From: Ilex aquifolium
Taxonomy: Eukaryota > Streptophyta > Magnoliopsida > Aquifoliales > Aquifoliaceae
Length of the DNA stretch: 64,000 nucleotides
NCBI GenBank assembly: GCA_951799425.1
Contig: OX637396.1
Span: 33,596,701 to 33,660,700 of the forward strand
Direction: 5' to 3'
Both the position numbers and the translations under genes were made by a program. Positions 25,903-61,732 of the stretch are shown here, in pieces. The notes under the pieces were generated by a model. It was given only the letters and a program-made list of their open reading frames with translations, had not been told where the DNA came from and ran no database searches. The first letter of the stretch is position 1, and every line of letters begins with the position of its first letter.

Positions 25903-28900
25903 TTAAAAAGGAAAGAAATGGAACCTGCTAGAACTAATCTGAACGTAGGGAATGTGAGCAATCTTGGGCCAATCTACTCCATTCTCCTTGGAATACCGTC
26001 CTTCAAGAAGTGGGCATTTTTCTATGATGAGACTTGAAAGTGTGTCAAGTATTCTTTCGTTCGGCAAGGAACCCAACTCGGGGCAAATCATGATTATCAG
26101 ATGCTCAAGAGAGGTTAGGTTTTGAAGCCCCTCAGAGAGAGACTCAAACTTAGGGCAATTGTTGATTTGCAGACGCTCAAGAGAGGTCAAGTTTCGGAGC
26201 CCCATAGAGAGAGACTTCAGATTCCAGAATCGAAAAATACGAAGGGATTTTAGAGTAGCAGGAAGAAAACACGAGTCCGGAAAGGAAAGTAGCTCTGGAT
26301 ATACATGGTTGATGGTGAAACTCCGAAGAGAGGAGAGTCTTTGTAGGCCCCACTCTGATAGAGGCTTTAGTTCTCCGTAATTGCAGATAGATAGCTCTTC
26401 TAGGTTGGGGGGCAAATTCTGGTCAGGAAAGGACTCAAGACTTTTACAATCACGTATAGTGAGTGATTTAAGGAATGTGAAGCTTTGACTCTGGCTAGGA
26501 AAGTAAAAGGGATTTTCAAACCCATAAATTTCAAGACTTACTAAGTTGGGAGTGCGCAAACCACTCCCTGAGAGCGAGTGGGGGATTTGATATTTCAACT
26601 TGCATCGTAATTCCTGCCTGTATACTGTAAAACCCTCCAAATTGGGCCAATTACTGATCCCAAAGCTTCCCGACATGATGCTCTGTTCGACCGTTTCTTT
26701 AACCCACTCCAAATTCCCGCAATTGTCAATGTAAACTGACTTAAGCATGGAGAGAAGAGTGTCTATTGGGAAAGAACTTAGAGAGGAGCAATTACTGAGG
26801 GTCAAGTGTTCAAGACGAGCGATGCAATTAGGGATGGACTCCAGAGAATCACAATTTTTAACGACAAGAAGTCTAAGCGTGGGCGGGAGACTGTCCTCTG
26901 GAAAAGAGACAAGCTTTGGGCAATTATAGATTTCCACAACCTTGAGAGATGTAAGGTTTTTCAGGCCATAAGGCAACCTCTCCAGATTTTCACAAGATTT
27001 TACACGCAAAAGGGAAAGGTTTTTTGGTGCAAGCCCATTCTGCCACAAAGTCACCAACGGGGCACATTTTGCAATTGTAAGATCTTTAAGTGACACCAAC
27101 ACATTCATGAACTCCTTCGGCAGATGAGTTGGACCCGGCATATTCTCAATTTTCAATGTGTTTAATGAGGGTAATTTGATAAAACTTTTCAACACAGCCT
27201 CATCACAATTTGTTATCTCTAAATTGCCACGAGAGAGAAGTCTTAAAAGTGGAACACTCACCAATTTAGGACAATTGCGTATAATAAGCTGACGAAGGCG
27301 AGGGAAATGTCCTTTAAAATCAACACCATAAGAAAAAGACCATTCCTCCCATTTTGGCATCTCACCAAACAATAGAATCTCAAGTGATGGAAATGGAATC
27401 TCCAAAGTGCTACCACCGTAATAGAACTCTGCACCCACGCTTTTCACAGCATGCATGTCGCCTATGTATAGTTCTTTGAGCAAGGGTAGCTGGCCCAGTG
27501 GTGGTAAAAACTCGCATTTCGTACAACCTTGAAGACGAATATTCATTGTTTTAGAGAATGAAGGATCCCCAATCCAACTAGGAAATGTGATGCCCCCGTA
27601 GAATTCAATTGTCAAACTTTTTAATTCTCTATGCGGCCGTAGCATTTGAAGTACACTAACTTGCAGCCCATCATTTTGAGAATCTTCAATGACACTATTC
27701 CATTTAAATTCCAACTCTTTAATATCCTGCTTGCAACTTAAATTAGCCTCCTTTGCATCCTGCACGTCCATAACATTTTCTAACCCTGCAATGGAAAGCA
27801 TCCCTCTCAGAAACAATAGCTTGTTCAAATCTCCTAGTCCAAATCCACTATTTTTGCTGACAACAATCTTTGGCAATGTTTGCAACCATTTCAATCTATC
27901 AATTCCTGAGGGCATCTCTTCTAATTTTGGAGTATCTCGAATGTCAAGATGGCGCAAGTTCACCAAATTTCCAATGTTGGTGGGCAACTTACAAAGGGCG
28001 GCGCAACCTTTTAATAATAATGTTTGTAAATTATAGAGAGTACTCACTGATTCAGGCAACCTTTTAATCAATGTCTGAGATAAATTCAGGTACCGAAGAT
28101 GTTTCAAACCCCCCATCGAATTGGGTAGCTCACTTAATTTGTACTCACTTAAAGATAATACTCTTAAGCGCTGCAATTTCGGCAGTAGGTTGACCAAAAT
28201 ACTATTGCTTAAATGGAAGTCTTCCCAACGGGATGACTTATAAATTGGTAGCGGTAAGAAAGTCCGCAAACCCTGAAGTTCATGAAATGCCTCAAATCTT
28301 TTATAGACCTCATATTTGTGGCGAATGAATGACGAGTGACGAGCTTTCTCAGAAATCTTACACCGTTCATTGCCCTCCATATTATCATCCAACCTAAAGC
28401 ATGTTTCTCCTGCAACATATTGAGCTAGATCATTCAAAATGTCATGCATCACAAATTTTGATTTCGTGCCACCTGAACGTTGGAAGAAGGACCTTGATAA
28501 TAGCTCCATGAAACACTTTCCACCTAACACTTCCATTTCTTCTGATTGTTGCAGAAATCCTTCTGCCATCCATAACAAAACTAACTCATCCATTTCAAAC
28601 TCGTAGTCCTTTGGAAATATAGCACAATATGCAAACATTTGCTTCAACTCAGAAGGGAGATGATGATAGCTTAATCTCAGAGCTGGAAGGATGCCACTCT
28701 TGTGCTCGGATAACTCCCAGATTTTGCTATTCAGTATAGCTTTCCACTCATCTGGGCTATGTATATTACGCAGAAGGCCTCCTAGTGTCTTCGCTGCCAA
28801 AGGCAAACATTCACACTTGTTGACTATATCCTTGCCAATTGCTTCCAAATTTGGATGGTCGTCAAATTTTTTTGTACCCAACGCATGTTGAGCCAATAAA

Positions 28901-29928
28901 GACAAACAATCGTCTTCTGCCAAAACATTCAGGGGGTAAGAAGTAACAGAACCCATGATCCGTGCAACACCTTCATTTCGAGTCGTAACAATAATTTTAC
29001 TTCCAGGTAGTCCAACTAAAAAAGGAGCACGGAGGCGATCCCAATCTTGGTAGTTCTCGTTCCAAACATCATCCAAAACAATAAGAAATTTTCTTCGAGA
29101 AAGTTTCTCTTTGAGACTCACTTGCAACATGTTGAGGTCGTTGAAGTCACATCTTTCCTTGGTCACTGCCTGACAAATAATCTTGGTTATCATGAATACA
29201 TCGAACTCTTCAGAAACACACACCCATGCTTTCGTATCAAAGAAATCCTTAACCTTCTCATCATTGTAGACAAGTTGAGCAAGAGTGGTCTTGCCCACAC
29301 CACCCATACCAACTATTGGAATGACGCGTGCTTCATCATTATTGGATTCATCCTTGAGCACCAATTCAAGTATTTCTTGTTTTTCCTTTTCCCGACCATA
29401 GACATGGGATTCAACCACCAAGGAAGTTGTTTCCGATCTCTCTCTGCTTTTGCTTGACCCTGCTTCTGGAGCTCTCAAACTCAGAACATCTCTTAGTTGT
29501 GCAATATCGTCTAATCTGACAACGATCTCCTCAATCTTGGGCTCCAACTTGAATTTGAGCTCAATAGATCTATGGAAATCAGTCAAAGAAGTAGGGAGGA
29601 AGTTCGGAACCTTGCTTGTGGTAGTTGCTGCTTCGGTCTCCGTCTTCAATTTATGGGCCAAAGCTTCTGTCTCGATCTCGTCTACAAGATCATCCACATC
29701 GTAAGCCAGATCCCTCAGATCCGCCAGCCACAGATTCACAGTTTCGTCACTTATTTGCTTAGTCTCTGCATCGTTGAGCAAAGCTTTAATAGTACTCAAC
29801 ACTTTGAGCAATTTCATCACCTGGGCATGAATTCCCACGCTGCGAGCAAAGTTCAACAGATCGCCAGAGGCCAATCTCTCGAATAGCACAGCTAAAAACG
29901 CGCCAAGAAAAATTTCTGCAATAGCCAT
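25903..29928 (-). CDS. CC-NBS-LRR (CNL) disease-resistance protein, RPP13-like 1 type
   Basis: A single-exon 1341-aa intracellular immune receptor; such proteins detect pathogen effectors and, in the ATP-bound state, trigger defence and cell death. The ATG at 29928 (MAIAEIFLGAF) is chosen because the open 16 residues upstream lack an ATG. Order: Rx-type coiled coil 1-150 with the EDVID-like AYDVDDLVDE (75-84); NB-ARC about 175-500 with P-loop GMGGVGKTT (207-215), RNBS-A FDTKAWVCVSEEFD, kinase-2 LIVLDDVW (282-289; final W typical of CNLs), RNBS-B KIIVTTR, CLPLA (374-378), RNBS-D FAYCAIFPKDYE and MHD (494-496); then leucine-rich repeats to the end, many with the 'L.I.NC..L.S.P' form. All key motifs are present and no stop or frameshift is seen, so it looks functional. 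It is flanked by MITEs on both sides. The exact resistance specificity cannot be inferred. Confidence 0.95.
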   Translation of the reverse strand: MAIAEIFLGAFLAVLFERLASGDLLNFARSVGIHAQVMKLLKVLSTIKALLNDAETKQISDETVNLWLADLRDLAYDVDDLVDEIETEALAHKLKTETEAATTTSKVPNFLPTSLTDFHRSIELKFKLEPKIEEIVVRLDDIAQLRDVLSLRAPEAGSSKSRERSETTSLVVESHVYGREKEKQEILELVLKDESNNDEARVIPIVGMGGVGKTTLAQLVYNDEKVKDFFDTKAWVCVSEEFDVFMITKIICQAVTKERCDFNDLNMLQVSLKEKLSRRKFLIVLDDVWNENYQDWDRLRAPFLVGLPGSKIIVTTRNEGVARIMGSVTSYPLNVLAEDDCLSLLAQHALGTKKFDDHPNLEAIGKDIVNKCECLPLAAKTLGGLLRNIHSPDEWKAILNSKIWELSEHKSGILPALRLSYHHLPSELKQMFAYCAIFPKDYEFEMDELVLLWMAEGFLQQSEEMEVLGGKCFMELLSRSFFQRSGGTKSKFVMHDILNDLAQYVAGETCFRLDDNMEGNERCKISEKARHSSFIRHKYEVYKRFEAFHELQGLRTFLPLPIYKSSRWEDFHLSNSILVNLLPKLQRLRVLSLSEYKLSELPNSMGGLKHLRYLNLSQTLIKRLPESVSTLYNLQTLLLKGCAALCKLPTNIGNLVNLRHLDIRDTPKLEEMPSGIDRLKWLQTLPKIVVSKNSGFGLGDLNKLLFLRGMLSIAGLENVMDVQDAKEANLSCKQDIKELEFKWNSVIEDSQNDGLQVSVLQMLRPHRELKSLTIEFYGGITFPSWIGDPSFSKTMNIRLQGCTKCEFLPPLGQLPLLKELYIGDMHAVKSVGAEFYYGGSTLEIPFPSLEILLFGEMPKWEEWSFSYGVDFKGHFPRLRQLIIRNCPKLVSVPLLRLLSRGNLEITNCDEAVLKSFIKLPSLNTLKIENMPGPTHLPKEFMNVLVSLKDLTIAKCAPLVTLWQNGLAPKNLSLLRVKSCENLERLPYGLKNLTSLKVVEIYNCPKLVSFPEDSLPPTLRLLVVKNCDSLESIPNCIARLEHLTLSNCSSLSSFPIDTLLSMLKSVYIDNCGNLEWVKETVEQSIMSGSFGISNWPNLEGFTVYRQELRCKLKYQIPHSLSGSGLRTPNLVSLEIYGFENPFYFPSQSQSFTFLKSLTIRDCKSLESFPDQNLPPNLEELSICNYGELKPLSEWGLQRLSSLRSFTINHVYPELLSFPDSCFLPATLKSLRIFRFWNLKSLSMGLRNLTSLERLQINNCPKFESLSEGLQNLTSLEHLIIMICPELGSLPNERILDTLSSLIIEKCPLLEGRYSKENGVDWPKIAHIPYVQISSSRFHFFPF

Positions 29929-30065
29929 TTTGTTTTCGGTTTTGGGAGATGGATTGGGAACAAGAAGAGGAAACACAGAGAGAAAATGGAGGTGTGTGAA
30001 GGATGGGTTTCAACAGTCCTGATTAAGGCCTCCTCAAAGTCTATGAGATGAAAGGAAAAAAAAAA

Positions 30066-31274: not shown

Positions 31275-32157
31275 GCAAAGAGTGATCCATACAGTTTAAA
31301 AGAGAGGGTGGGTATTGATACAACGATAAAATTATTTTATTATGACTTGATTGTCATGGGTTTGCATTATGGAGATAACTTTTACACACAAGGGATAAAA
31401 TATGTACATGTGACTCTTTGGAGACGTTGCAATGATAGGAGCTTCATGCACGGGATTATTATTTTTTATCAAAAAGAAAAAAGAAAAAGAAAGTGCTTTG
31501 CATTTGCTTGTGAGAGAGCATAAGAGAACAAATCATGTTGGACCAACTTTTTGGTTAAGAGAGTGAAAGGTGGTCCAACCAGGCAAATATTTATTTAGAT
31601 CAAAGTTTGAAAAGCACTATATTTTTACTTAATGCAAGTTGGCAACTTGGTTCTTATTGTTAATTTCCATGGTACCATGTTGTTCTTTAATTTTGTAGCA
31701 ATAATTTTGTAGGGAGGCTACCCAGAAACTTTCTCATCCAACATATAACAAATGATCCATTGTGATTGAACTTCAAAACGGGTCATTGCTTATATAGAAC
31801 AAAAAAGTAATTTTTAAAAAAGTAATAGGCTATATATTTCCAAACTCATTCGGAAAAAAATGGACAATGTAACTTACTCGGGAAAAAAAGGGAACGGGAA
31901 TTTTGAACGACAACGTTTTGGAATTACAACTTAATCATATCAAGTTACGACTCAAATAAATTTGGTAACGACTCAATTGGTTGACTTACAATTGATCAAA
32001 AAAGCTTGGGATTAATCCCAAGTCTTTAGGATCGATCCCAAGTTTTTGAACTTCATTGGATCGTAATTTTGCCCTCATTGAATTATAATTTGTTCTTATT
32101 GAATAGTAATGTTTTTTCAAAATTTTCCTGAAAGGAATAAAATAGAAGAGGAGTGGT
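31275..32157. repeat. Intergenic direct duplicate (unit 1)
   Basis: Aligns in the same orientation with 43919-44594, sharing for example 'GCAAGTTGGCAACTTGGTTC', 'CCATGGTACCATGTTGTTC' and 'TTTAGGATCGATCCCAAG'. The segment 31330-31565 is absent from that copy but related sequence occurs at 63055-63275. The two copies bracket the CACTA element. Confidence 0.75.
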
Positions 32158-33954: not shown

Positions 33955-33970
33955 CACTACAACAAAAAGC
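33955..33970 (+). repeat. Left CACTA terminus
   Basis: CACTACAACAAAAAGC begins the element; subterminal GCGACG follows from 33978. The outer right partner is missing in this window. Confidence 0.8.
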
Positions 33971-33977
33971 ATTTTTT

Positions 33978-35290
33978 GCGACGTTTTTTTTGCGACGATT
34001 TTAAATTTGTCGCAAATAGTTTACTATTAGCGACGATTTTTTAATTTCGTCGCAAATTTCTGTTTTGCTAAATTTTTTAAACATTTTACTTAAATAAGAA
34101 ATTTAAAAAATATCAATTTAATTGACTTTTAGCGATGTTTTTAAAAAACGTCGCAAATAAATATTTTACTTAAATAAAAACTTTTAAAAAAATATCAATT
34201 AATTCACTTTTAGCGACGTTTTTTAAAAACGTCGCAAATAATCATTTAACTTAAATAAAAAATTTAAAAAATATCAATTGAATTGACTTTTAGAAAAACG
34301 TCGCAAATACACATTTTACTTAAAAAAAATATCAATTTAATTGACTTTTAGCGACGTTTTTAAAAAACGTCGCAAATAAACATTTTACGCAAAAAATTTA
34401 AAAATATCAATTTAATTGACTTTTCGCGACGTTTTTAAAAAACGTCGCAAATAAACATTTTACTTTAATAAAAACTTTAAAAAATATCAATTTAATTGAA
34501 TTTTAGCGACATTTTTAAAAAACGTCGCAAATAAATATTTTACTTAAATAAATACTTTTCAAAAAATATCAATTAATTCACTTTTAGCGACGTTTTTTTT
34601 AAAAACGTCGCAAATAATCATTTAACTTAAATAAAAAATTTAAAAAATATCAATTGAATTGACTTTTAGCGACGTTTTTCAAAAACGTCGCAAATACACA
34701 CTTTACTTAAAAAAAAACTTTAAAAAAAATATCAATTTAATTGACTTTTAGCGATGTTTTTGAAAAACGTCGCAAATAAATATTTTACGTAAATAAAAAA
34801 TTTTAAAAAAAAATTTAATTGACTTTTCGCAACATTTTTAAAAAACGTCGCAAATAAACATTTTACTTTAATAAAAACTTTAAAAAAATATCAATTTAAT
34901 TTACTTTTAGCGACGTTTTTGATAAACGTTGCAAATAAACATTTTACGTAAATAAAAAATTTAAAAATATCAATTTAATTGACTTTTCGCGACGTTTTTA
35001 AAAAACATCGCAAATAAACATTTTACTTTAATAAAAACTTTAAAAAATATCAATTTAATTGACTTTTAGCAACGTTTTTAAAAAACGTCGCAACTAAACA
35101 TTTTACTTTAATAAAAACTTTAAAAAATATCAATTTAATTAACTTTTAGCGATGTTTTTGAAAAATGTCGCAAATAAAAATTTTACTTAAATCAAAAATT
35201 TTAAAAATATCATTTAAATTGACTTTTAGCGACGTTTTTAAAAAACGTCGCAAATAAACATTTTACTTTAATAAAAAATTTTTAAAAAAA
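33978..35290. repeat. Left subterminal array of about 80-bp palindromic units
   Basis: About 15 units, each with a GCGACGTTTTT / AAAAACGTCGC hairpin followed by an A/T spacer ending 'ATCAATTTAATTGAC'. Consecutive CGTCGC words are spaced by about 75-85 bp (34148, 34231, 34367, 34443, 34607, 34684, 34768 and so on). In CACTA elements such subterminal repeats bind the TnpA-type protein. Confidence 0.85.
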
Positions 35291-35305
35291 ATCAATTTAA
35301 TTCAC

Positions 35306-36630
35306 ATGTTAATTTGAATGTTAATTTAATGAAATTGAAAGTCGATTTGATGAAATTACATGTTAATTTGATGAAATAAAATGCCAATTTGATAAATTGA
35401 ATGTTAATTTGATGAAATTGAATGTCAATTTGATAAATCGAATGTTAATTTAATAAAATTCAAAGTCGATTTGATGAAATTATATGTTAATTTGATGAAA
35501 TTGAATGTCAATTTAATAAATTGAATGTTAATTTAATGAAATTGAATGTCAATTTGATAAATTGAATGTTAATTTAATGAAATTGAAAATCGATTTGATG
35601 AAATTACATGTTAATTTGATGAAATTGAATGTCAATTTAATAAATTGAATGTTAATTTGATGAAATTGAATGTCAATTTGATAAATTGAATGTTAATTTA
35701 ATGTAATTGAAAGTCGATTTGATGAGATTACTTGTTAATTTGATGAAATTGAATGTTAATTTAATAAATTGAATGTAAATTTGATAAATTGAATGTTAAT
35801 TTAATGAAATTGAAATCGATTTGATGAAATTACATGTTAATTTGATTAAATTGAATGTCAATTTAATAAATTGAATGTTAATTTGATGAAATTGAATGTC
35901 AATTTGATAAATTGAATGTTAATTTCATAAAATTGAAAAGTCGATTTGATGAAATTACTTGTTAATTTGATGAAATTGAATATCAATTTAATAAATTGAA
36001 TGTTAATTTGCTGAAATTGAATGTCAATTTGATAAATTGAATGTTAATTTAATGAAATTGAAAGTCGATTTGATGAAATTACTTGTTAATTTGATGAAAT
36101 TGAATGTCAATTTAATAAATTGAATGTTAATTTGATAAAATTGAATGTGAATTTGATAAATTGAATGTTAATTTAATGAAATTGAAAGTCGATTTGATGA
36201 AATTACTTGTTAATTTGATGAAATTGAATGTCAATTTAATAAATTGAATGTTAATTTAATAAATTGAATGTTAATTTGATGAAATTGAATGTCAATTTGA
36301 TAAATTGAATGTTAATTTAATGAAATTGAAAGTCGATTTGATGAAATTACTTGTTAATTTGATGAAATTGAATGTTAATTTGATAATTTGAATGTTAATT
36401 TGATGAATTGGGTGTTAATTTAATAAAATTGAAAGTTTATTTAATGAAATTGAAAGTCGATTTGATGAAATTACTTGTTAATTTGATGAAATTGAATGTT
36501 AATTTGATAATTTGATGAATTGGGTGTTAATTTAATGTAATTGAAAGTTTATTTGATTACTTTAAATGTTTAATTGAATGTTAATTTGATAAATTGAATG
36601 TTAATTTGATGAAATTGAATGTTTTTCAAA
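35306..36630. repeat. Minisatellite with a roughly 123-bp higher-order unit
   Basis: Sub-units of about 18-21 bp of the form 'TTGAATGTTAATTTGATGAA' are organised into repeats marked by 'TCGATTTGATGAAATTA' near 35341, 35466, 35589, 35712, 35815, 35939, 36062, 36188, 36332 and 36466, i.e. mostly every 120-126 bp. Non-coding; inside the CACTA element. Confidence 0.85.
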
Positions 36631-36847
36631 AACGTCGCGAAAATGCAATTCGCTCCTAGTAATTTTTTTGCGAGAGAAATGGCGGGAATTGGAAATTTTA
36701 AGGCAATTATTTTTTCGCAATAAAATTTTAAAAAATTACAATCTACCTATTTTTTCGCGACGTTTTCAAAAGACGTAGCCAATAGTTAACTTTTTCGTAA
36801 ATTAAAACCGGCCGAGTTAGACAAACCGGATGGTTTGATTGCATTAG

Positions 36848-37186
36848 TATAAATGTTAGATTTTTTTCCCCCTTTCTTTTTTCTCCTTTTGTTTTGTTTT
36901 GTTGCCCTAAAATCTAAATCGATCCAGAGTTCAGACTTCAGTTCAGAGACTCCAGTCCAGCCGACTCCACTCCTCCAGACCAGGTGACTTCGCAGCACAG
37001 CGGCACAGCCTCGCCTCCACGGTTCCAAACTTCAACCACCAACGATCCAGTTCAGCGACTCCAGTCAGCAATCCAGTGCAGCAACGATCGCGATCCAGCA
37101 GCGACTCCACCAGTCCACCGAGCGAGCAACAGGCAGTCGAGGTCCAGTCCAGTGCCCAGCAGCGAATCCAGTCATAAACCAATGAA
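36848..37186 (+). promoter_or_regulatory. Promoter and first exon inside the CACTA element
   Basis: A TATAAAT box at 36848-36854 is followed by a C/A-rich leader with repeated 'GATCCAG/GACTCCAG' words and a first exon ending ATGAA|GTGAGT at 37186. Spliced to the next recognisable exon (37789) the ATG at 37182 would hit a stop after ten codons, so any transcript is probably non-coding. It may be the leftover promoter of the element's own transposase gene. Confidence 0.45.
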
Positions 37187-37788
37187 GTGAGTTTCCCCCT
37201 CTCTCTCGGTCACTCCCCCTTTTTCTTTTCTCTGTCTCAGTCCAATATATGTCTCTCTCAGTTTGGGTATTTTATGTTGCAGTTTTTTTTTGTAATTTTG
37301 CAATTGTACAACACAGTGAACACACAGTGCTTGAATTCTTTGAAATCAAAATGAAAGTTGGGAATTAGACTCTAATCAAAATGGTTCCAAACTTTCCTTT
37401 GCATTCTTCGTTGGTCAGTGTTTTTCCCCCCATTGTGCCTGACTCAATTTGTTAAAGGGAAGGGGTTTACGTTTCTTTTCCTATTTGTGTGTGTCTGGGT
37501 GTGTGTTTGAGGATTGATTTGTGTTCGATTAATTTACGTTTCTTTTCCTATTTATTTTCTTTTCATGCAATATTTTGTATGAGGTAGTACGTAAGGTTCT
37601 GTTGTTCCATGTATGAGGCCTCTAGGCTCTGAATTCTCCATTTCTGTGTCCACTAGAGACGCATTTAGGTTGATCCAATCATGCGGTTAATTGACCATCT
37701 TTGTTTATGTATTAGCATTCCAGTGGTATGCTGCTCTCTTACTGTGCCATTCTGTTTTCTGAAAAAGGCTTGTGCAATCTGTTCGCAG
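37187..37788 (+). other. Intron-like sequence before the first captured exon
   Basis: T-rich, bounded by a GTGAGT donor at 37187 and a TCGCAG acceptor at 37788. The part nearest 37789 is probably the natural gamma-COP intron. No ORF of note. Confidence 0.4.
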
Positions 37789-37930
37789 GTTCGTGATAGG
37801 GCTACTTTGTATCTGAATACTATTACAGAAGATAGTTCAATTGTTGAAGGCAATAAAGATGTGAAGGAATTCCTGTTTGGGTCACTGGATGTCCCACTGG
37901 TCAACCTAGAGACAAGTTTGAAGAACTATG
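37789..37930 (+). pseudogene. Captured exon of coatomer gamma subunit (later exon)
   Basis: Encodes VRDRATLYLNTITEDSS... FLFGSLDVPLVNLE... KNY, the part of COPI gamma-COP that in a complete gene follows the ...CLYDSDDE exon. It is flanked by a CAG acceptor and a GTGAGT donor. The preceding exon of the normal gene is found 3.3 kb further downstream (41265-41315), so the gene pieces are in permuted order. The exon itself is undamaged, but its neighbours are GST exons. Only a fragment; the COPI vesicle-coat function cannot be served by it. Confidence 0.85.
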
Positions 37931-38056
37931 TGAGTCGCAAAATTTAAATCGTCTTTCTTTTGGGTATTTTGATTTGAATCGTATTTCTTCTGGGTATTTT
38001 GATCTGGCTCTGATTTTTTGTTCATTCCTGTATTAACTCTCTCTCTCTCTCTGAAG

Positions 38057-40225
38057 GGTGCAAGAGACTCTTCCACCTGCCCTCGACTCGACTTCAGACC
38101 CACCTGCAATCTTAGATGGAACTACAAGGTTGGTTAAGAATTTGGTTTCTCTTTTGGGGCTATTTGATTTATAAATTTGTGGTTAATTGTTATTGATGTG
38201 TTTATGTTTGCGGGAATGCTTATATGGACCTTTTTGCATTTATAAGAACTCCTTTTGTAAACTTACATATGCCCTCGTGCATTTTAATGATTGCAGGCTG
38301 TATATATCTTACACATGCCCATATGCACAACGCGTATGGATTATTCGGAATTATAAGGTTGTTTCAAGAATTCTTCTTGATCTTGGTTCTGCTTTATTTA
38401 ATCTCTCTCCCTTTCTCTCCCCTTAAATTGCAAAACACCCCGGGTTTGGCAGATAACCTCCCTCAACTTTGTCTCCCTCAACCTTAAACCGTTGCATCAA
38501 ACCTCCTTAAACTACAATTTCTTGTGTAAAACAAGACGGCCGTCGAAAATTGAGCGGCACGTACCAAACACGCCCAAAACAGCGACAGAGTGGCCAAATT
38601 TATCAAATTTTTTATCTAAAATTTAAAAAATATCCCCATTTCTTCCTCCCCCCTCTCTTCCCCTTGTGTTTCTCTCTTTCTCCCCTCATCACCGGCTAAC
38701 AGTCCACCACTATCAGTCTTCTCTCTCTTCACATGCGAACACCCACCACCACCCAGCACATCAAAACCTCCACTGCCCAACACCCCAATCAAAATTCCAC
38801 CAAAACAAAACCCTACCTTGAACATGGATGACAACCCATCTCAAAACAACAACCCATGGTACTCCACAACATTTGCACCCCCCACCCCAAGATATAGAGA
38901 GAGAAGGGTTTGAGGTAGAGTATTTTAGTATTTTTATAAATTTTGTAGCACTTTATTTTTAAATTGAGGGGGTTTAAGTATTATAGTTAAAACTAGGAGA
39001 AGGTCATGTGCAAATGACTCTTAAGTACAAGGTTTTTTTTTTTTTTTTTTGCATTTAACCTGTTAAATTTTGCATAGTTCTTGCAGAGTTTACATTGTTA
39101 AATATATGTTCAACTTTCTTCGGAGAACAGGGACTACAGGAGAAGATAAAATTGGTTCCTATTGACCTACAAAACAGGCCAGCTTGGTACAAGGAGAAAG
39201 TTTACCCACCAAACAAGGTGAAATTATATGTTTTATGGTTATAAATAGTACCACCATTATAAGTTTACCCATATCAAAATTATTACCTCTTAAAAACTAA
39301 GTACGCACAATGTGTCAGTTATGTTTGAACTTAATATGTGTGTTCAATGGCATCGAAAGTGAAACAAATAGGTTGCAAAGAATTGTAGAAAACTTTTAAG
39401 TACTCATTAGTTGTTTCCTACATCCATATTCTTTTGCCCTTTATTATATGTGACACGTTCATGCAGGTGCCATCTTTGGAGCACAATAATGAAGTTAAGG
39501 GGGAGAATCTTGATTTGATCAAATACATTGACAGCAACTTTGAAGGGCCTTCTCTTTTCCCTGATGTAAGATCCGGAGACTCTTATTCTAACATATTTTT
39601 CAAGACATGTGACTCTGCATTCTGAAAGAATGTTAAAAATTTGGTAATGTAGGATCCATCCAAGAAAGAGTTTGCAGAGGAGTTGCTGTCATACACTGAC
39701 TCGTTCCATAAGGCCGTGATTGCTTCTTTCAAGGCAGACGGAAATGATGGAGCTGGTGAGCTGAACACTTAACTGATGTTGAAGTTGTGAATTTCAAAAT
39801 AAACTGGCGTAATTGTTGTGATGAACTGCTTTAGGTGCTGCATTTGATTATATTGAGACGGCTCTTTCCAAATTCGAGGATGGACCTTTTTTCCTGGGCC
39901 AGTTCAGTCTGGTGAGTGAAAACCTTTCTTATGTTATCTGCATGATGTATAACATTATTCCTGAGTTAAGCTTTTAAAAGTGGCAGCTAATTATCATCCC
40001 ATTTTGTGAAGAGAAATATTAGATGAGGTTAAAATTGTAAGATGAGGGAAAATTGTGCTTTGTGATTTGACAAGTTTTGATGTCTGTGGTCTCTAAGTTC
40101 ATATCCGTGTCCTTCAGGTGGACATAGCTTAGGTGCCATTCATCGAAAGGTTTCAGCCCTTTTGGCTGGATGTGAAGAACTATGACATCACTGTAGGCAG
40201 GCCAAAACTGGCAACATGGATTGAG
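38057..40225 (+). pseudogene. Captured lambda-class glutathione S-transferase gene fragment
   Basis: Seven exons in natural order with GT-AG introns: 38057-38128, 38297-38357, 39131-39217, 39467-39565, 39653-39755, 39835-39911 and 40118-40225. They read like plant GSTL/In2-1 proteins, including the YTCPYAQRVW active-site region (Cys-type, as in lambda GSTs), GENLDLIKYID and PFFLGQFSLVDIA. The start-codon exon and the last C-terminal exon are absent. Exon 7 has an in-frame TAG at 40130-40132 where a Tyr codon is expected (VDIA-stop-VPFIERF). Retained introns show a DNA-level copy, not a retrocopy. The intron between exons 2 and 3 holds an extra inserted repeat (about 38430-39060). Frame does not continue from the upstream gamma-COP exon. 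Confidence 0.88.
38430..39060. repeat. Repeat inserted in GST-fragment intron 2
   Basis: The other introns of the fragment are 86-310 nt while this one is 773 nt. The extra part contains a C/T-rich stretch and an open but unrecognised - strand frame. It ends near CTTAAGTAC followed by an 18-bp T-run (39033-39050). Insertion boundaries are uncertain; CTTAA occurs at both ends. Confidence 0.4.
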
Positions 40226-40714
40226 GTATTGCAATTAGATTTATTCTTTGTATGACCTTGCGTATATCTAGGTCTCCATGGAATCATCAGTTTCTGTTTG
40301 CTAAGACATGGCAAGGACTCTATGTCATTCCCTGAAGAGTGGTGGGCACGTAAAAGTGATGATAATTTGCCACAATTAAGACGTGAAATTAAAAACCTTT
40401 GAAACACTTTTATGCTCAAATAAACAGGCATGGTGTATTATGCTCAAATAAATCAAGCTCTCCCAATTGCTTTGCATTTTCGTATTTATCTATGTTCACG
40501 CACCCATACACAAAAGATGGTTCCGGTTTCTGTGATGATTGAACATGTAAAGAGCACATGCATTACTATGAACACTGAGAATGTCTCCTTTGACAAATTT
40601 GGAAGCTGAAGAGCAGTTTCTATACCTTGGAATTTGCTCATCCTTGTAATCAGTTTACACTCCTATCAGCTTCATTGGATAACCATATCGTATTTCTTGT
40701 CATTCTCTTTTTAG
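40226..40714 (+). other. Junction between GST and gamma-COP fragments
   Basis: Non-coding, bounded by the GTATTG donor after the last GST exon and the TTTTAG acceptor of the next gamma-COP exon. The break between the two captured genes lies somewhere here; I cannot place it more exactly. Confidence 0.45.
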
Positions 40715-41315
40715 GATGAATTTCTTAAGCAATATACTGAGGGAAGAAGGTGGATTTGAGTACAAGAAGGCAATTATTGATTCTATTGTGATCCTCATAA
40801 GAGATATACCGGAGGCAAAAGAAATCGGGTTGCTTCATCTATGTGAATTTATTGAGGATTGTGAATTTACATATCTTTCTACACAGGTTGAAATGTTATC
40901 TCCTATTGCTACTCTATTTGTTTCGTTCATAGTGTTTCTCTTTTGCTGCACTTAGGTGTGTATGATTTTCCTAAGCTCTTTTCATGAACTTTATTTCTTC
41001 CTTTCCTTATTAGATACTCCACTTTCTTGGAATTGAGGGACCAAAGACCTCAGATCCCAGCAAATACATAAGGTATATCTATAATCGAGTAATACTTGAG
41101 AATGCAACTGTTCGTGCCAGTGCCGTGAAAACATTGGCAACGTTTGCTGCTATGGTTGATTCTTTGAAGGTAAGCTTTCTTTCTTTTAATCTACAAACAT
41201 GCACTGGGATTGCTTGGTGGGCTCCTAACTTGGAGTGGACTTTTGTGGTTTTATTGTGTTGCAGCCGCGTATATTTGTCTTGTTGAGGCGCTGTCTCTAC
41301 GACAGTGATGATGAG
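40715..41315 (+). pseudogene. Captured exons of coatomer gamma subunit (earlier exons)
   Basis: Three exons with GT-AG introns: 40715-40886 ([20 protein letters not shown]... [13 protein letters not shown]), 41014-41169 ([20 protein letters not shown]... [10 protein letters not shown]) and 41265-41315 ([17 protein letters not shown]). These are consecutive exons of the gamma-COP adaptin-like trunk, and the next one in a normal gene is the exon at 37789-37930. No stop is seen within them. They are the downstream end of the captured block and lack both the start and the C-terminal appendage of the protein. Confidence 0.88.
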
Positions 41316-42465
41316 GTCAGCTTTTGGTTTATGCTATTTAATATTTTGGTATTTATGTTTAACTATATATATGTAAGATATTACAAAGTGCTTTTTACTT
41401 CTTCGTCAAGATCATGGAAAGTTTACCAACATGTTTTTTAAATTTTTTTTTAAGATTAGACTGAAAAATTGTCCATGAAATAGTTTGAGAACTTGACTTA
41501 CTAAAGTTGCTATGATACTGTGGTGGGAGAGTGTGAGAAAACCTTCAACTTGGTTAGAGTTTGGTTAAGTTTCGGTTAACTTTGGTTTGATTAAATTGGA
41601 ATAAGGAATAAGGTTAAGTTTTGTTTTTATTTTAACCAGCTTCTTCACGTTGACCAGCTACATCTTTCATTTAGTTAATTTTTGGTTTCGAGGTAATTAA
41701 ATTATGTGTTCTTGTTCACTGAAGTTCAGTGTAGTTCTTCATGCATTTTTCAGTACTACATAAGTGATATTCATCTGCTAGTGAATAATAGTGGCTGCAT
41801 TACTAAGTTTCATCTGTCTCTTGTCTCAGAGACTTCATTATTTAGTGGGTTGCCTTTTTACGTGTGTCTGCATCATGATATATATGAAAACTTCTACAAC
41901 AAGCTACTGCCATATTTGCAGTGTTGAGTTAATTTCATGAGCTGAATTCTGAAGTGCAGTTTTTGTTAGAATGAGGAGTGCATGTTTAGCAGTCTGTACT
42001 ATTGCAGTCTGTGCAGTGCTGATGAGTAGCAGGTGAAACTGGAATGTTGTAGATATGCTGAGATGGAATGATGTTCAGAGGGTGTTGTCTGTTGTAAAGT
42101 GCCAGGAGCTGAATGGATCAGGCACCTGCACTGTGGCCTGATTTTTCTGATCCGACTTCAGTCTGGGTTGGTACTGATTTGTTGACCTTGGAGATGGTAT
42201 TTCAAGGCATGGAGCTGGACTGCTGGAGCTGTTCAAGTTTAAGAGATATTAAATGTAATTAGAGATGGTTTAAATCCTCTTGAAGGATTAAAGCCATTTT
42301 TTTAATTTTTAGAACTGCTTGTTCTTTGATTCTTGTAATTCATTCTTTTTTGAAATAAAATTGTTTTTTTTTTAAAGATGTGAAATGTATGTTGAATGGA
42401 AAAGATGTGAAATGTATTAATTATGTTAATTTTTTATTGAACACAGATATTATTGGTGTACAGGT
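41316..42465 (+). other. Intron remnant and 3'-UTR-like region of the CACTA element
   Basis: T-rich intron-like sequence to about 41930, then a G-rich, non-coding stretch (41940-42240) and AATAAAATT near 42355, resembling a 3' untranslated end. No recognisable protein. It may derive from the element's original transposase transcript. Confidence 0.35.
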
Positions 42466-43526
42466 GAAAAATTTTATTGGAATATCAATTTTTATGAATT
42501 ACTTTAAAAAAAAATGAACTTTTTGCGACGAAATTAAAATCGTCGCGAAAATTGTAGGAACAATATTTTTCGCGACGATTTTTATACGTCGCAAATTTAT
42601 TTATTTAATTATTTTTTTACATTTTTTATTTTTGTAAAAAATTATTCGCGACGTTTTTTTTTCCGTCACTAAAAATTAATTAAATTATTATTTTTTATTT
42701 TTTGTAAAAAACTATTGGCGACGATTTTTTTATGTCGCTAAAAATTAATTTAATTATAATTTTTTACATTTTTATTTTTGTAAAAAACTATTGGCGACGA
42801 TTTTTTTACGTCGCTAAAAATTAATTTAATTATTATTTTTTACTTTTTTATTTTTGTAAAAAATTATTTGCGACGATTTTTTTTACGTCGCTAAAAATTA
42901 ATTAAATTATTGGAATATCAATTTTTATGAATTACTTTAAAAAAAAATGAACTTTTTGCGACGAAATTAAAATTGTCGCGAAAATTGTAGGAACAATATT
43001 TTTCGCGACGATTTTTATACGTCGCAAATTTATTTATTTAATTATTTTTTTACATTTTTTATTTTTGTAAAAAATTATTCGCGACGTTTTTTTTTCCGTC
43101 ACTAAAAATTAATTAAATTATTATTTTTTATTTTTTGTAAAAAACTATTGGCGACGATTTTTTTATGTCGCTAAAAATTAATTTAATTATAATTTTTTAC
43201 ATTTTTATTTTTGTAAAAAACTATTGGCGACGATTTTTTTACGTCGCTAAAAATTAATATAATTATTATTTTTTACTTTTTTATTTTTGTAAAAATTTAT
43301 TTGCGACGATTTTTTTTACGTCGCTAAAAATTAATTAAATTATTATTTTTTATTTTGTTACATTGGTGGAACATATTTTAGCTACGTTTTTATAACTTTT
43401 AGCGACGTTTTTTTTTTCGTCGCAAAATTTTTTTTTTGCGATGAAAATAAATTTGCGTCGCAAAATATTTTCTGCGACGAGGCTATTGCGACGAACACGC
43501 GACGAAAATAAAACGTCGCAAAAAAT
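42466..43526. repeat. Right subterminal GCGACG array with a 434-bp tandem duplication
   Basis: Hairpins of GCGACG / CGTCGC with A/T spacers mirror the left array. The block from about 42478 to 42911 ('GGAATATCAATTTTTATG' onward) is repeated almost exactly from 42912 to about 43345, an internal tandem duplication of about 434 bp. The terminal portion 43380-43526 carries the densest GCGACG motifs. Confidence 0.85.
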
Positions 43527-43547
43527 AATTTGCATGGAAAATAAAAA

Positions 43548-43851
43548 GGTTTTTCGCACTTTATACCCCGAAAGATTTTAAGTTTTTTACTTTATATTTC
43601 AAAGATTAAATTTCTCACATTGTACACTCCATATATCAAAAGTATTGCAATGTAACCATTCGGTTAGCTTTTCGTTAGATTTTCAATCAATGTCAATGGG
43701 TTGACTTTTTACAAAAAAAATAACGGAAAGCTACTAAAGGGCCATATTACAACAATTTTGATAAATTGAGGGTACAATGTGAAAAATTTAATCTTTGCAA
43801 ATGGAAACTAAAAAATTTGAAATCTTTCAGGGTTGCAAAGTAAAATTAGCC
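43548..43851. mobile_element. MITE/foldback adjacent to the CACTA right end
   Basis: 304 bp with about 130-bp imperfect inverted arms (left 'GATTAAATTTCTCACATTGT'; right arm reversed 'GATTAAATTTTTCACATTGT'). Same family as the outer element at 25030-25880. It begins 22 bp after the last CACTA motif, so its insertion or an associated deletion may explain the missing CACTA tip. Confidence 0.7.
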
Positions 43852-43918: not shown

Positions 43919-44594
43919 AGCAAAGAGTGTTTCATATAAATCAAAAGAGAGGGAGGTACTCGGTACAACGATGAAAGGTGGTCCAATCTGGCAACTACAA
44001 TGTTGATTTATTCATCAACACATCCAAGGAGACGACTGATTCAAGATTATATAATATATATTTTGATAAAAGTTTGAAAAGCACTATACTTTAATTTAAT
44101 GCAAGTTGGCAACTTGGTTCTTATTGTTAATTTCCATGGTACCATGTTGTTCTTTAATTTTGTAGCAGTAATTTTGAAGGGAAGCTACCCATAAACTTTC
44201 TCATCGAGCATACAACAAATGATCCACTATGATTGAACTTCAAAACGAGTCATTGTCTACATAGAAGAAAAAAGTAATTTAAAAGTAAGTAATCGGCTAC
44301 ATATTACCAGACTCGTTCGGAAAAGAAGGGACAATGTAACTTACTTGGGAAAAAAAGGAGACGGGAATTTTCAACGACAACATTTTGGAATTACAACTTA
44401 ATCATATGAAACACTCAATTGTCTGACTTACAATTGATCAAAAGAACTTGGGATTAATCTCAAGTCTTTAGGATCGATCCCAAGTTTTTGAACTTCATTG
44501 AATTGTAATTTTGACCTAATTGAATTATAATTTGTTCTTATTGATTCGTAAATTTTTTTTAAAAAAATTCCGAAAGGAATAAAGTAGACAGTGG
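43919..44594. repeat. Intergenic direct duplicate (unit 2)
   Basis: Same-orientation partner of 31275-32157. It lacks the 31330-31565 part and has about 65 extra bases near 43995-44060. Non-coding. Confidence 0.75.
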
Positions 44595-48942: not shown

Positions 48943-49603
48943 TGATGGTGTAAATCTACGCGAAATGAATAGTGGTCCTGAATTATGTAATACAAAATAA
49001 TGTTGATGTTCAGGGGGTCTTTGGGAAAGGGGTGATAATGAGACAAGGCTATAGTGGTTCACCGGCCGGAGCTCAGCTAGTCCACTCTCTAATGGAGGCT
49101 CTTGCTCCTATCCCTTTATTGATCAATCGGATGTGTTACAACAGAATACTCAGGGTTTTTGGATTCCCAATCGTCCCCCTCTAATGGGGGCTCTCTCTTC
49201 CTTTTTATAGCCTCATACTTACCTCTAATACGGGACTATCCTACATTGAAGGGATCGTGCCCTATCTTCCTCCACAATTCCGGAGTTACCTAAATTCCTT
49301 ATGGATGGCTTCAAACGGAGAGATGTATGCCTCCTTCTGTGGGATCCTCCTTAGTTTTAGGAGGAGGAGATCATGGTTAAATACGGGTTTTTTGCCTCGG
49401 ATTGGATTCTACTTCCTTAATAAGGGTATCCGAGTCATCTTGTTGTTCCCTTAGCATTTCTCATCTCGCGCCTTCGACGAGGAGCTCTTAGCGCTGACTG
49501 GATGAGCTCTGCCCATGGCTAGGGGAGCTCAGCCTACTTTGCCTGAGCTCCCGAGCTGAGCTCATTTAGTGAGCACGTGTCAGTTTTATTCTAGGTATCA
49601 TCA
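48943..49603 (-). repeat. 3' LTR of Tat element copy 2
   Basis: 661 bp, 3' relative to the - strand gag-pol. Differs from 61736-62396 at 49068 (G versus A). TATA box at 49209-49202 on the - strand. Confidence 0.95.
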
Positions 49604-49620
49604 GTTGCCCCCCAGCTCTT
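49604..49620 (-). other. Polypurine tract of copy 2
   Basis: Reverse complement of AAGAGCTGGGGGGCAAC next to the 3' LTR, identical to copy 1. Confidence 0.8.
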
Positions 49621-50252
49621 GCCTTAAGCTGGCTTAGGTAAGGGCTGACCTGCAATCCGGACTGAATTAAATATTCACGTGGCTAGTACGTGACCTGGGG
49701 ATTTTTGACGGTTTGCAGTAATCATGATTTCTCCTCGATTCCCGCGCATGTCTCAGCCCACGTCCTCCAAGCTTTTAAATACCCAGAAACGGCTACATGA
49801 ACCGTTTTCTTCACACTGTTCATCTTCACTGCTGCTCTTTGTCTCTATTCTCTCTGCGATTTTGGGCCATTGAACCTTTCTGCTTTCTTGCTTGAAATCG
49901 AATTTCCGGACCTCGTTTCGAAGATTTGCGACGCCTCCTTTTCCGATTTCGTTCCAAGTTTCTGTTTGCCACTATCCCTGAGTTAGGTACGTCCTTTGCC
50001 CTTATTTCTTCCTCTTTTGCTCTGGATCCCTCGAGCTCGAGGTGGTTATTGCATTTTTGGGCTTTTCGGTTCTTTTATTTTTGGAATCGTGACCGTTGTT
50101 TAGCCCCTCTTCCTCATTTCGTCGATTGGGGCTCTATAATCCACATCCTTGCCGTCGGGAGTTACTGTGCTGACCCTAGGGTTATTAGGGAGAGTTTGAC
50201 CAGTGTTCCCCTTCTCTACCGCTCTTTTAATCTTCCCTTTCCTCTTCCCATT
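49621..50252 (+). promoter_or_regulatory. Leader and promoter region of antisense gene A (copy 2)
   Basis: A TTTAAATA box near 49774 precedes a CT-rich leader. A strong AG|GTACGT donor-like site lies near 49987, hinting at a 5'-UTR intron. The frame of gene A stays open from 49926 but has no ATG until 50253. Almost identical to 13544-14175. Confidence 0.4.
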
Positions 50253-52831
50253 ATGTCTGCTTCTTCCGGAGCCACTCGTTCATCTGTTTCGCTACTAGGG
50301 GGTCGATCTGAAGACACCGATTTGGGGGATATTGGCGACAAAATTGACAACTTTCCCTGTGTGGGAGAGGCCGAGGTCGGCACCGAGGAACCCCCCTCCT
50401 CCTCTTCCCCTATGCCCCCCAGACCTGATAAAGGCAAAGTTAAGGTGAGTGGAGTCGGGGTTGAAGAAAAAGTTTCGTACTTGGGGTCTGCTTTCAGGCA
50501 TTCCGAGTCTGTGGGCTACAGTAAAGAAGCCCCTGAGCTAATGAAAATCTATAAGGTTCGGTATGGTTTTCCTCCTGGGGTCGAGCCCTGGTGCCCAGGT
50601 CGCTCTGTCTACTACGTAGAACCAGTACGCAATAGGGTCTGCTTCTTTCTTGCCGCCTTTGATAACGGTCTTCGCTTTCCTCTGCACCCCTTCATCAAGG
50701 CTATTCTGCAACACTTCCGTGTGTGCCCCTCCCAGATTTCTCCCAACTTCTATGGCGTCATGGTTGGTTTTTTAGTCATCTTCAAGAAGCATAAGCTCGG
50801 GGTTCCTAGCATTTCTCTGTTTCAAGAGTTTTTTAACGTCAAACCGACCTCTGAAGGCTTCTTGTACGCCTCTAAGCGTGCCAACGTTAGGCAGCTTATC
50901 TCTAACATTCCTTCGTCTCATAAGCACTGGAAGGAGCATTTCTTTTTTGTCGGGGGCATCAATTGGGAGTATAATCCTGCTGATAAGACAGATACACTCG
51001 GTATCCCTACGGCTTGGACTGAACCAGACAACTTGCGTGAGTCTTTACTCGAGTCGGCTGAGCTCTGATCTGGAACTTATAGGCCTCTTGCCTTTCTCTT
51101 ACTTGTACCTTTTCTTCTTTTCAGGTGGTCGTCTTGAGCTCAGCCCTGAAGACAATAAAGTGCTGGCAAAGTTGGCGAAGATTAAACCGGAAAAGTACGC
51201 TGACCTAATTGAGTTGAAAAATTTGGTGCGGCTAGGTCTGAGCCCTCCTGCGGTGACTTTAGCGATCCCACTATCTGTTTTAGGGGCTGACGAAGGTAAT
51301 TTCAACGCCACTCTTTTTCCTTTCTTCATCATCTTTCCTCCTTTTCTCTTTTTCTTTACATTCTCCTACTTCTTCCAGATCTCCCAGGTCCTTCTACCAT
51401 GAAGACTACTCCAGAGGAGATTCAGGCCAAAATCGCAGAGCTGATGGAGGGTGGCAGGTCTGGGAAACACAAAGCTCGGGTAGGCTCTGGGAGCGGCCCA
51501 AACTCTCGAACTAAGATCCCCAGATTGGAAGTATCTTCTTCCCCCTCTGCAGCTGAAGGACAGGTTCCGAGCAAGGCTCCACCCTCCTCCTCTGGGACTC
51601 CACAAGCTGCAACCACCTCTTCCCCTCCAGTGGCCCCTTCTAAGTTGGCGTCTGCTCGAGAGGGGGATCAGGCTTCCCCTTCTTCTTCTGAGGTTGAGGA
51701 GGCTTTGAAATTGGTTCCCGACCTTCAACCCGGGAGTTTCAAATACAGTGCTTCTGGGAAGGTGATTGAAAAAGAGAGAAAATCTGAGGAGGAAGACGAG
51801 GACTCCTTTTTTGACAATATAGACCTTGCTGCTGGAGCTCTTTCCTCTATCTTTTCTGAATCTGACGTCCTGAAGGCTGCTTCCATGCCCTTGGAGGAAT
51901 CCATCTCTTTGGCTCTTCAGGGAGCTGCTTCTGTAAGTGTTAGCCCCCTGTCTCTCTTTGCTCGTTTGCATTTTGTGGTCTGACATTATTTGCTGTACTT
52001 TCCTTATATTCTCAGGCTGCCCTTCATACGAAAGGTCTGCTGCACCGAGTTCGTTCTCAAGAGAGCTCTTTCCAGGTCTTAAAGAAATACCAGACCAAGG
52101 TTTCTGAATTGTCTCTTGAGAATGAAGACCTCAGAGCTCAGGTGGAGAGCCTTAAAGTGCAGATGGAGGGTCTCAACGAGCAGATGGTGAAGCAAGCCTC
52201 CGACCTCAAGCATACATTGACAGTCAAGGTCAGAGCTGAGGAAGGGGAAAAGAAGACTCGGGATGAGCTGAAGGCGGTTAAGGAAGAGCTGCAGGCTAAG
52301 GTTGAGGCATGGTCCAAGGCTAACCAGGAGGCCTTTGACGCTAAGAGGGAGCTCATCCAGGTCAACCAAGATTATCTTGCCCTTAGTGAGGCTAACGGCA
52401 AACTCTGTGAGGAGCTCGAGGAGCAGAAAAAGGAGTTTGCCGAGCTTAAGGATGAGGCCACCACTTCATGGGCTACTGGATGGCTCGCTTTTAGGCGTAA
52501 GGCTACCAAAACATATCCAGACCTTGATTTCAATCTCCCTATCCCCACTGAGGAAGAAATGGAAGAATCTGGCACTGACAATGAGGAGGATATCTCAGTC
52601 TCCCCAGCTGCTGCCTTAAGTCAAGACACACCTGGTCCTGGGACCTCAGGGGCTATTATCGCACTTCCTGAGCCTTCAACGACGATTCTTGAGCTTTCTG
52701 CTGCAGCTCCTGCTGTTCCTGTTTCTGCATCGTTTCCAGCTGTCTTGGTGTCTGAGCCCTCAGCAACAGAAGCAAGGAACTCATCTACTGAGCCGCGAGA
52801 CCCTTCAATCCCTCCTCTTCCAGAAACCTAG
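50253..52831 (+). CDS. Antisense accessory gene A, Transposase_28-like with coiled coil (copy 2, intact)
   Basis: Four exons, 50253-51036, 51125-51295, 51379-51932 and 52016-52831, with GT-AG junctions and continuous frame; 2325 nt, 774 aa. ATG at 50253 (MSASSGATR) is the first in frame. Residues about 138-200 (GLRFPLHPFIKAILQHF, PSQISPNFYGVMVGF) match the 'putative gypsy type transposon' family Transposase_28. Exon 2 adds a LSPEDNKVLAKLAKIKPEKY segment. Exon 3 is a Ser/Pro-rich, low-complexity linker. Exon 4 has a long heptad coiled coil and GWLAFRRKATKTYPDLDF, then an acidic, Ala/Pro-rich tail. It runs opposite to gag-pol between the polypurine tract and gene B. No enzyme motif is seen; the coiled coil suggests self-association. 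The copy-1 version is truncated by a stop. Confidence 0.85.
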
Positions 52832-54041
52832 ATCTTTTTAGTTGTAATTCCTCTGTAAAGAATTTTTCGTGATGTAGTCTTTGACTTCATATGTTGCTCT
52901 TTTGCTGGCTTAGCACATATATATATATATATCTTTTACTTTCAGCACATATGTATCTTTGAACTTCGATTCGATTCCGATTCGAACCGCAACTGTTCAC
53001 TTATTTGACTTGCTTTGCATGTACAGCTTTCAACTGTTCATTTATTTGACTTGCTTTGCATGTACAGCTTTGTATACTCCCCTTGCCCCTTTTTGCTTCG
53101 AGTGGTGCTGTGCACTTGTTGAAGCAAAATCACAAGGTTTGAACAGTACAGGAGACTTGGTGTTATGCTCCACTGCTTCTCCTGAGCCCTTTAGGCTCGG
53201 TAGTTGGTACCCTAGGGATCCATTCCTTATTCTTCTTCGTCCTGAGCTGCTCTGCTCTATATTCTGAACTGGCGTGCTCCTTCAGAGTTGCATAGCTCGT
53301 GCTTGTGGGCCTATAAATTCTTGCTGAGCTAAGACGGCTCTTCTTTCGAACCTAAAAGTTCTTACTGAGCTCTTTATCTTTTCTGTATGAACTGAAGAGC
53401 GCTTTCTGAGCTATTTGGCTCTGTTGTCTGATCTTAAGGTTTATTTCTGAGCTTCATGGCTCTTTTGTCTGAATTTAGAGGTTCTGTCTGAGCTTCGTGA
53501 TTCTTCGTGATTCTCTCTTTTCCCCACATCTTGCTTGGCGGAGTGCTTTAGGTCTTCTTTAAGCGAGGCTTTGAGCTTTCACACCTCAAAGACTTGGTAT
53601 ACAAGTGCTCTGTTTTTGACTGACCGCAATCACTTTCCATAACTGCCGCTACCCTCATTAACTAAGAGACTAGATAGGCCGCTGACTCCTTCTTCCTTTC
53701 TGAATTTTGCACTGAGTCCTCTTATCTTTACCAGAAAAGAAGAACATTCTGGTGGGTTTAGAATTTTCCTCTGTCGTGCAGAGTGCGAGAAGAGGGTTAA
53801 TCTTGCGCTGGCTCCTTTTCCCGCCTTTTTCTCAACCGTTTTCCATAACCATAACCGTCTTTATTAATTAGGAAACTAAAGGGACAGTTGGTATGCTTCT
53901 TGGTTTCTTAAATCTGCTGCCTTCTTTAAGTCTCCTTTAACCTTCCAAGCTTCTTCTCCCTTTGCCAAGAATACTCCTGTATTTCTCCTTGGATTCTTCT
54001 TGATTCTTCGTGGCCACCATCTGCTTTCTTTGCGAGCTTCA
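52832..54041. other. Spacer between antisense genes A and B (copy 2)
   Basis: Counterpart of 9682-10964. Includes a (TA)n near 52917-52931, the duplicated 'TTGCTTTGCATGTACAGCTT', many GAGCTC words and, at 53071-53119, a block resembling one after gene B (55281-55326). 53930-54040 is CT-rich and is the likely leader of gene B. Confidence 0.5.
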
Positions 54042-55136: not shown

Positions 55137-55650
<514 letters not shown>

Positions 55651-55659
55651 AAGAGCTCA

Positions 55660-56125: not shown

Positions 56126-56196
56126 TGGAAATCATAGAAGGGCGGATAAAAGACCTGCTCGTTCTTATTCAAAAATAACTCCATTACAAGTAACAC

Positions 56197-61671: not shown

Positions 61672-61715
61672 CAATTACTGAGAAATCAGTATATTTGTTT
61701 AATGAGAAGCGTTCT

Positions 61716-61732
61716 TCCCACAGACGGCGCCA
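61716..61732 (-). other. Primer-binding site of copy 2
   Basis: TGGCGCCGTCTGTGGGA on the - strand, 3 nt inside the 5' LTR, identical to copy 1. Confidence 0.8.

Follow-up and report, generated by a model that had tools for sequence, protein, structure and literature searches.

The 64,000-nucleotide stretch of Ilex aquifolium DNA analyzed here (the window; assembly GCA_951799425.1, contig OX637396.1, referred to as C6, positions 33596701-33660700; genome 800 Mb, 103 contigs) harbors a CACTA-type transposable element carrying fragments of two host genes, gamma-COP and a glutathione transferase lambda gene (GSTL). All gene pieces lie on the same strand and retain their introns. Along the + strand, on which all features of the element are given, the left terminus with its arrays is followed by the element's own 5' segment, the gamma-COP exon E4, a CGC filler, the GSTL fragment, pieces of the last gamma-COP intron, the gamma-COP exons E1-E3, the element's own 3' tail, and a right array. 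The original prediction, made from the sequence alone, had described the order E4, seven GSTL exons, and E1-E3 on one strand between CACTA arrays, which was confirmed.

The left terminus (CACTACAACAAAA, 33955-33967, 0 mismatches) is identical in its 13 bases to the left end of six related elements of the same genome (S2, S3, S5, S6, S9, and S10, described below). It is followed by a left subterminal array of GCGACGTTTTT-type units (33972-35302; in the Tandem Repeats Finder (TRF) output 34078-35302 with a period of 80 and 15.6 copies, and also 33972-34002) and by an internal array of AT-rich units of approximately 21, 41, and 124 bp (35297-36623, TRF), to which similar arrays exist in the sister copies. 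The 5' segment (36624-37562) contains the motif ATGAA|GTGAGT at approximately 37182. On the other side of the cargo, the tail (41507-42475), of which 41862-42200 recurs in more copies, begins at the capture join at 41507 and leads into a truncated right subterminal array with an internal 433-bp duplication (42474-43534; TRF and terminus scan). No right terminus was detected in the terminus scan of this copy, the array of which ends at about 43534, whereas S2, S6, S9, and S10 run approximately 60 bp and S1 approximately 30 bp past this stop, to TTTTGTTGTAGTG. Subterminal repeat arrays on both sides are a feature of CACTA (En/Spm) elements; by its left terminus, its arrays, and relatives with equal 3-bp flanks, the window copy can be assigned to a CACTA family. 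The earlier designation as a Pack-CACTA element thus holds for the CACTA affiliation, the host gene fragments, and their permuted order, but not for an intact unit, because one end is gone. No open reading frame (ORF) of at least 220 aa was found in the window copy, which is probably a right-truncated, non-autonomous Pack-CACTA from a gene-capturing family. An inverted repeat of 81 bp (43580-43817, 75% complementary) lies just past the truncated right end, and the element is flanked by a direct repeat (31586-32146 and 44053-44588, 86% identical), possibly an older element hosting the CACTA insertion.

The gamma-COP donor is located on the same contig (C6:~3.60 Mb), with identities between 97.8% and 99% depending on the block. 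Its coordinates are given for the locus oriented along the gene (S7; S7 position p corresponds to C6 position 3610300-p). The E4 piece (37563-37935, donor 10365-10750) comprises the end of intron 3, exon E4 (37789-37931, ending one base later than first assigned), and the first bases of intron 4. It is 98.6% identical to the donor over 368 bp from 37568, the first bases having been read by eye, and 13 bp shorter than the donor near the piece start. A third gamma-COP stretch (40575-40687), missed in the original inventory, which had rightly listed E4 and E1-E3, stems from the last intron and consists of piece A (40575-40672, donor 12508-12605, 98.98%) and, after a backward jump, piece B (40669-40687, donor 12485-12503, read by eye); in the donor, both sit between the last two exon-like frames. 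Piece C (40685-41509, donor 9316-10140, 97.8%) contains E1 (40715-40886), E2, and E3 (41265-41315) with introns. The frames of E1-E3 and E4 are open. Placed in their inferred natural order, they give one colinear alignment with residues 398-562 of the coatomer gamma-1 chain 5a1u_E (E 6.9e-56); therefore, the exon expected after 41315 is the one at 37789, as had been proposed. Pfam returned Adaptin_N for E1-E3 and no match for E4 alone. A paralogous gene (S8) is equal to the donor at 689 of 812 sites over E1-E3. Four CACTA-like 13-mers with at most two mismatches occur across the four donor stretches fetched (L002, L003, L021, and L022); the one in the last intron of the gamma-COP donor (S7 12809, 2 mismatches) was discarded as a terminus because no subterminal repeats follow it.

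The GSTL fragment (37939-40574) starts in intron 1, downstream of the donor's putative start-codon exon, and covers seven exons with introns. Its exons match glutathione transferase lambda1 (4pqh_A, E 9.4e-90) and Pfam GST_N_3; exon 7 contains an in-frame stop (TAG) that is absent from the donor. This donor (L002) lies at C1:~52.475 Mb of the same genome and is unlinked to the gamma-COP donor, each gene having one best place. The identity is 94.8% over 2517 columns (37972-40443), 95% in 37939-37975, and 86% in 40453-40581. A repeat-like stretch in a GSTL intron (38430-39010) is present in the donor, too (identical at 554 of the 573 aligned sites, with 47 gap columns, 39 of them in one block), and part of it (~38472-38890) is also found at other places. 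Near its right end, the fragment shows a re-copied stretch, TTATGCTCAAATAAA (40438-40452), and then a forward jump in the donor, as seen by comparing both sequences by eye. A 30-bp tandem duplication at the GSTL start (37942-38003) was considered as a join scar but may be ordinary, because the second unit is partly present in the donor. The alignment to the parental loci, suggested as a check in the original prediction, located both donors, and identities of 94.8-99% over 98 to 2517 aligned bases to loci of the same genome exclude chance similarity. With captured host sequence of identifiable donors for both gamma-COP and GSTL, which is the mark of Pack-TYPE elements, the window copy works like a Pack-TYPE cargo carrier. 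It most likely has no present effect beyond its pseudogene cargo; a chimeric transcript driven by the element is conceivable.

The first genome search listed 63 matches, and 40 of 113 candidates were scored, so the counts of relatives are lower bounds and statements on their absence refer to the places scored. Ten loci of 20 kb were compared, comprising eight elements (S1-S6, S9, and S10), the donor S7, and the paralogous gene S8. From 40646 onward, including the tail, the identity between the window copy and six sisters (S1-S6) is 97.2-98.6%; for piece C it is 98.7-99.3%, and piece A comprises 98 bp in the window copy versus approximately 27 bp in the sisters. On the left, the 5' segment is 86.8-92.4% identical to S1, S2, S4, S5, and S6 up to 37487, and 36946-37487 is 96.9% identical to S3. 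The slot in between holds E4 and GSTL in the window copy and another gene fragment in S1, with S2-S6 matching S1 across it. Its first exon-like piece, when translated, matches At2g37210 (E 2.6e-17) and, over about 35 residues, putative cytokinin riboside 5'-monophosphate phosphoribohydrolases; it has no Pfam match, and for the second exon-like piece nothing appeared among the matches listed. This phosphoribohydrolase-like fragment presumably corresponds to LONELY GUY (LOG) and is termed LOG-like here. The sister elements with another arrangement, for which the original prediction had advised searching, exist in six copies with the LOG-like fragment in place of E4 and GSTL. Among the places scored, only the window copy carries GSTL and an E4 piece starting at 10365, and donor positions 10365-10499 occur only in the window copy and in genes.

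Other relatives carry other parts of gamma-COP or none. S10 contains S7 9762-10140 followed by the tail. In N3 and N4, S7 6895-9380 is present in normal order (with an internal gap in N4) before a jump to 41638 in the tail, and no match to the 5' segment was found leftward as far as fetched. S9 (C2:53968000-53987999; L025, L026) is a distant 15.1-kb CACTA element with a tnp2 transposase (Transposase_21, E 3.8e-99; Transpos_assoc, E 3.1e-26), which carries S7 10500-11953 including E4 (1398 of 1451 sites) and an RRM fragment on the opposite strand; capture is thus not limited to elements lacking a transposase. Over 42207-42479, the tail of S9 shares only 88% identity with that of the window copy. 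Given that the gamma-COP piece of S9 is 96% identical to the donor, this element appears to have captured the gene independently. In N1, N2, and N5, the tail has other sequence on its left, without gamma-COP within the 5.5-6 kb fetched. To the left of the 41507 site, N2 and N5 resemble each other for approximately 530 bp, and this resemblance extends through the site; N1 shares only approximately 22 bp there. These three represent the 41507 join before the gamma-COP capture. On the opposite side of the cargo, M1 and M3 (37431-37553 at 97.6%) and M2 (36624-37553 at 87%) continue beyond 37553 with other sequence, and their 4-kb stretches contain no gamma-COP. The scan of the eight other element loci revealed both ends in six (S2, S3, S5, S6, S9, and S10), the right end only in S1, and neither in S4. 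The 3-bp flanks, where the target-site duplication of a CACTA element would lie, are equal in five of the six two-ended relatives (S10: AGA/GAT), and these five (S2, S3, S5, S6, and S9) all carry gamma-COP.

The six joins of the window copy (J1-J6) show overlaps of 2, 0 (with the 3-bp filler CGC at 37936-37938, which is in neither donor at that point), 0 or 4, 4, 3, and 3 bp, as determined by eye. When breakpoints were placed randomly in the same sequences by simulation, an overlap sum of 12 was obtained with P = 0.011 and a sum of 16 with P = 0.0006. Short re-copied stretches are present near J1 and, as described, near the right end of GSTL. The backward-order join A|B|C, AATCAGTTTACACTCCTATCAGCTTCAGTGGATAACCATATCGTAT, is found in the window copy and in six of six sisters (in S3 with one C), and piece B has one base private to the window copy but is otherwise as in all six. 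Since J4-J6 are common to the sisters, the six joins are not all events of the window copy. Three of them, near 37563, 37938, and 40575, occur in this copy only, which would be compatible with a misassembly of unrelated pieces. We consider such an artifact highly improbable: the contigs are long (C6 comprises 42.8 Mb), six further places have the same A|B|C and 41507 joins, and the blocks flanking the private joins differ from the donors by scattered substitutions.

The distribution of gamma-COP pieces over different elements (6895-9380, 9316-10140, and 10500-11953), together with the existence of a distant subfamily such as S9, would be in line with separate captures in different elements that were brought together by inter-element recombination. 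This explanation appears unlikely, albeit somewhat less so than the circle model discussed below. The joins show overlaps of 0-4 bp rather than long shared stretches, and no second element with 10365-10499 or with the 98 bp of 12508-12605 was found among the places scored. S9 itself is an unlikely source of the window E4, as it has changes absent from that piece and starts at 10500 instead of 10365.

Because six sisters share it with the window copy, the arrangement of gamma-COP last intron, E1-E3, and tail predates the split of the lineages. S1-S6 have an A at donor site 9898, in contrast to the G found in the donor, S10, and the window copy; this speaks against a derivation of the window copy from the LOG form. 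In the 5' segment, the window copy differs from the sisters by 2.40-3.14% (0-1.80% among sisters) and in E1-E3 by 0.73-1.33% (0-0.73% among sisters). Most simply, the ancestor would have had a longer piece A, which was subsequently replaced from its left side in two lineages, in one by the LOG-like fragment and in the other by GSTL. E4 would then have been part of the same ancestral stretch, 10365-12605, once continuous.

On these grounds, we favor serial template switching guided by microhomology, within a Pack-CACTA family whose cargo differs between lineages, as the probable origin of the permuted order. Repair DNA synthesis within an element would have produced the copies, with the nascent strand leaving its template at short matches and copying from gamma-COP. 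Backward jumps within this gene would have led from 12605 to 12485-12503 and on to 9316, until the element was met again at 41507. Later rounds would have exchanged the internal cargo, yielding E4 and GSTL in the lineage of the window copy and the LOG-like fragment in that of S1-S6; presumably, the steps took place in this order and repair synthesis was the process at work. Gap repair is reportedly described for Ds by Rubin and Levy, whose work is cited elsewhere with regard to capture. The short overlaps, the filler, and the re-copied stretches favor template switching, and the backward order within one donor arises more naturally from copying than from end joining. The original interpretation, which offered two histories, two gamma-COP captures or one capture with later tandem or circular rearrangement and GST insertion, is partly supported; the relatives point to a series of steps. 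More tentatively, the internal slot might be rewritten repeatedly by repair synthesis from unlinked genes, a resident gamma-COP fragment drawing repair back to its gene, which would be sampled piecemeal and out of order. If so, Pack-CACTA cargo could arise by a replicative route that differs from the fusion of neighboring insertions.

Several observations weigh against this scenario. The short overlaps also fit end joining. The tail tree, in which the window copy stands outside S2-S6 and S1, S10, and the window copy are not separated, is weak, with one of eight inner branches starred. Changes on the donor branch, polarized with paralogous genes and small in number, amount to 3/825 for C, 3/367 for E4, 0/98 for A, 12/1451 for S9, 19/2443 for N3, 10/1558 for N4, and 7/896 for part of GSTL, and do not separate the captures in time. 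With 96.1% of sites equal to the donor when gaps are disregarded (2394 of 2491), GSTL is overall less similar than gamma-COP; it may be older, or its true donor may be another copy. In 39417-40312, the only polarizable stretch, 20 of 896 sites differ, similar to the gamma-COP blocks. Finally, the donor positions at which the E1-E3 piece ends (10140) and the E4 piece begins (10365 or 10383) are separated by 224-242 bp of one intron, an arrangement compatible with a circle or tandem copy having been opened at this point.

The latter leads to a macrotransposon or circle model, in which a CACTA element in gamma-COP intron 3 would have been followed by tandem duplication or circularization of the locus, the outer ends of two copies mobilizing all DNA between them and GSTL being added later. 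Such a history would yield E4 to the left of E1-E3 with all pieces on one strand, and closely spaced insertions are the Pack-CACTA route published, as far as the available parts of that literature go. Nevertheless, we regard it as improbable. It is less economical and calls for an additional duplication or circle along with several deletions, and the succession 12605, 12485-12503, 9316 is not one duplication join. Furthermore, no element with a continuous 10365-12605 was found among the places scored, the donor stretches fetched show no match to the subterminal repeats (although an old insertion could have left), and a comparable history would have to be assumed for GSTL and for the LOG-like piece as well.

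In the remaining window, two near-identical long terminal repeat (LTR) retrotransposons (1215-14853 and 48943-62396; 98.2-99.0% to each other by piece) lie in opposite orientation, with LTRs that are 100% and 99.85% identical within each. Both have 1825-aa ORFs, and the first contains gag, reverse transcriptase, RNase H, and integrase domains. A 1357-aa ORF on the - strand (25903-29976) with Rx_N, NB-ARC, and LRR domains encodes a resistance gene product of the CC-NBS-LRR type.

Pack-CACTA and other Pack-TYPE transposons have been described by Gisby and Catoni (PMC8903248, citing Catoni et al., 2019). According to the accessible portion of that article, DNA between two neighboring insertions is moved and kept after fusion, and independent capture of the same gene is taken as rare. 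This model keeps the order of the captured DNA and, by itself, neither permutes it nor joins unlinked genes. The family described here resembles these elements in its CACTA termini, its host fragments with introns, and its multiple copies, as well as in the lack of a long ORF in the window copy; the window copy differs from those described there in its permuted order of pieces from one donor, among which sequence of an unlinked gene is interspersed. Soybean Tgm-Express1 (PMC1947982) is likewise a CACTA element with several host gene fragments and conserved exons and introns, but these derive from five different genes, and permuted pieces of one gene are not described in the part of the report available. 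Judged from titles and the opening lines of abstracts, no CACTA element with permuted pieces of one donor is announced in the papers searched. How DNA transposons join unlinked gene fragments is an open question in the field, and section 7 of a 2026 review (PMC13317346), in the portion consulted, allows for an alternative mechanism that has yet to be discovered. Because a single genome provides the donors together with sites predating the capture, differing forms, and sister copies, the breakpoints can be ordered and the models compared directly. As far as the accessible sections of the study on animal Pack-TIRs (PMC8277862) indicate, application to plant Pack-MULEs is called worth exploring by its authors. 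The elements in question are of animal origin, unlike the one analyzed here; however, the gap-filling and FoSTeST models proposed for them involve template switching at microhomologies of 1-36 bp (median 2 bp) in capture by TIR transposons, as suggested here, and the multicopy cases spread by transposition, like the family of the window copy.

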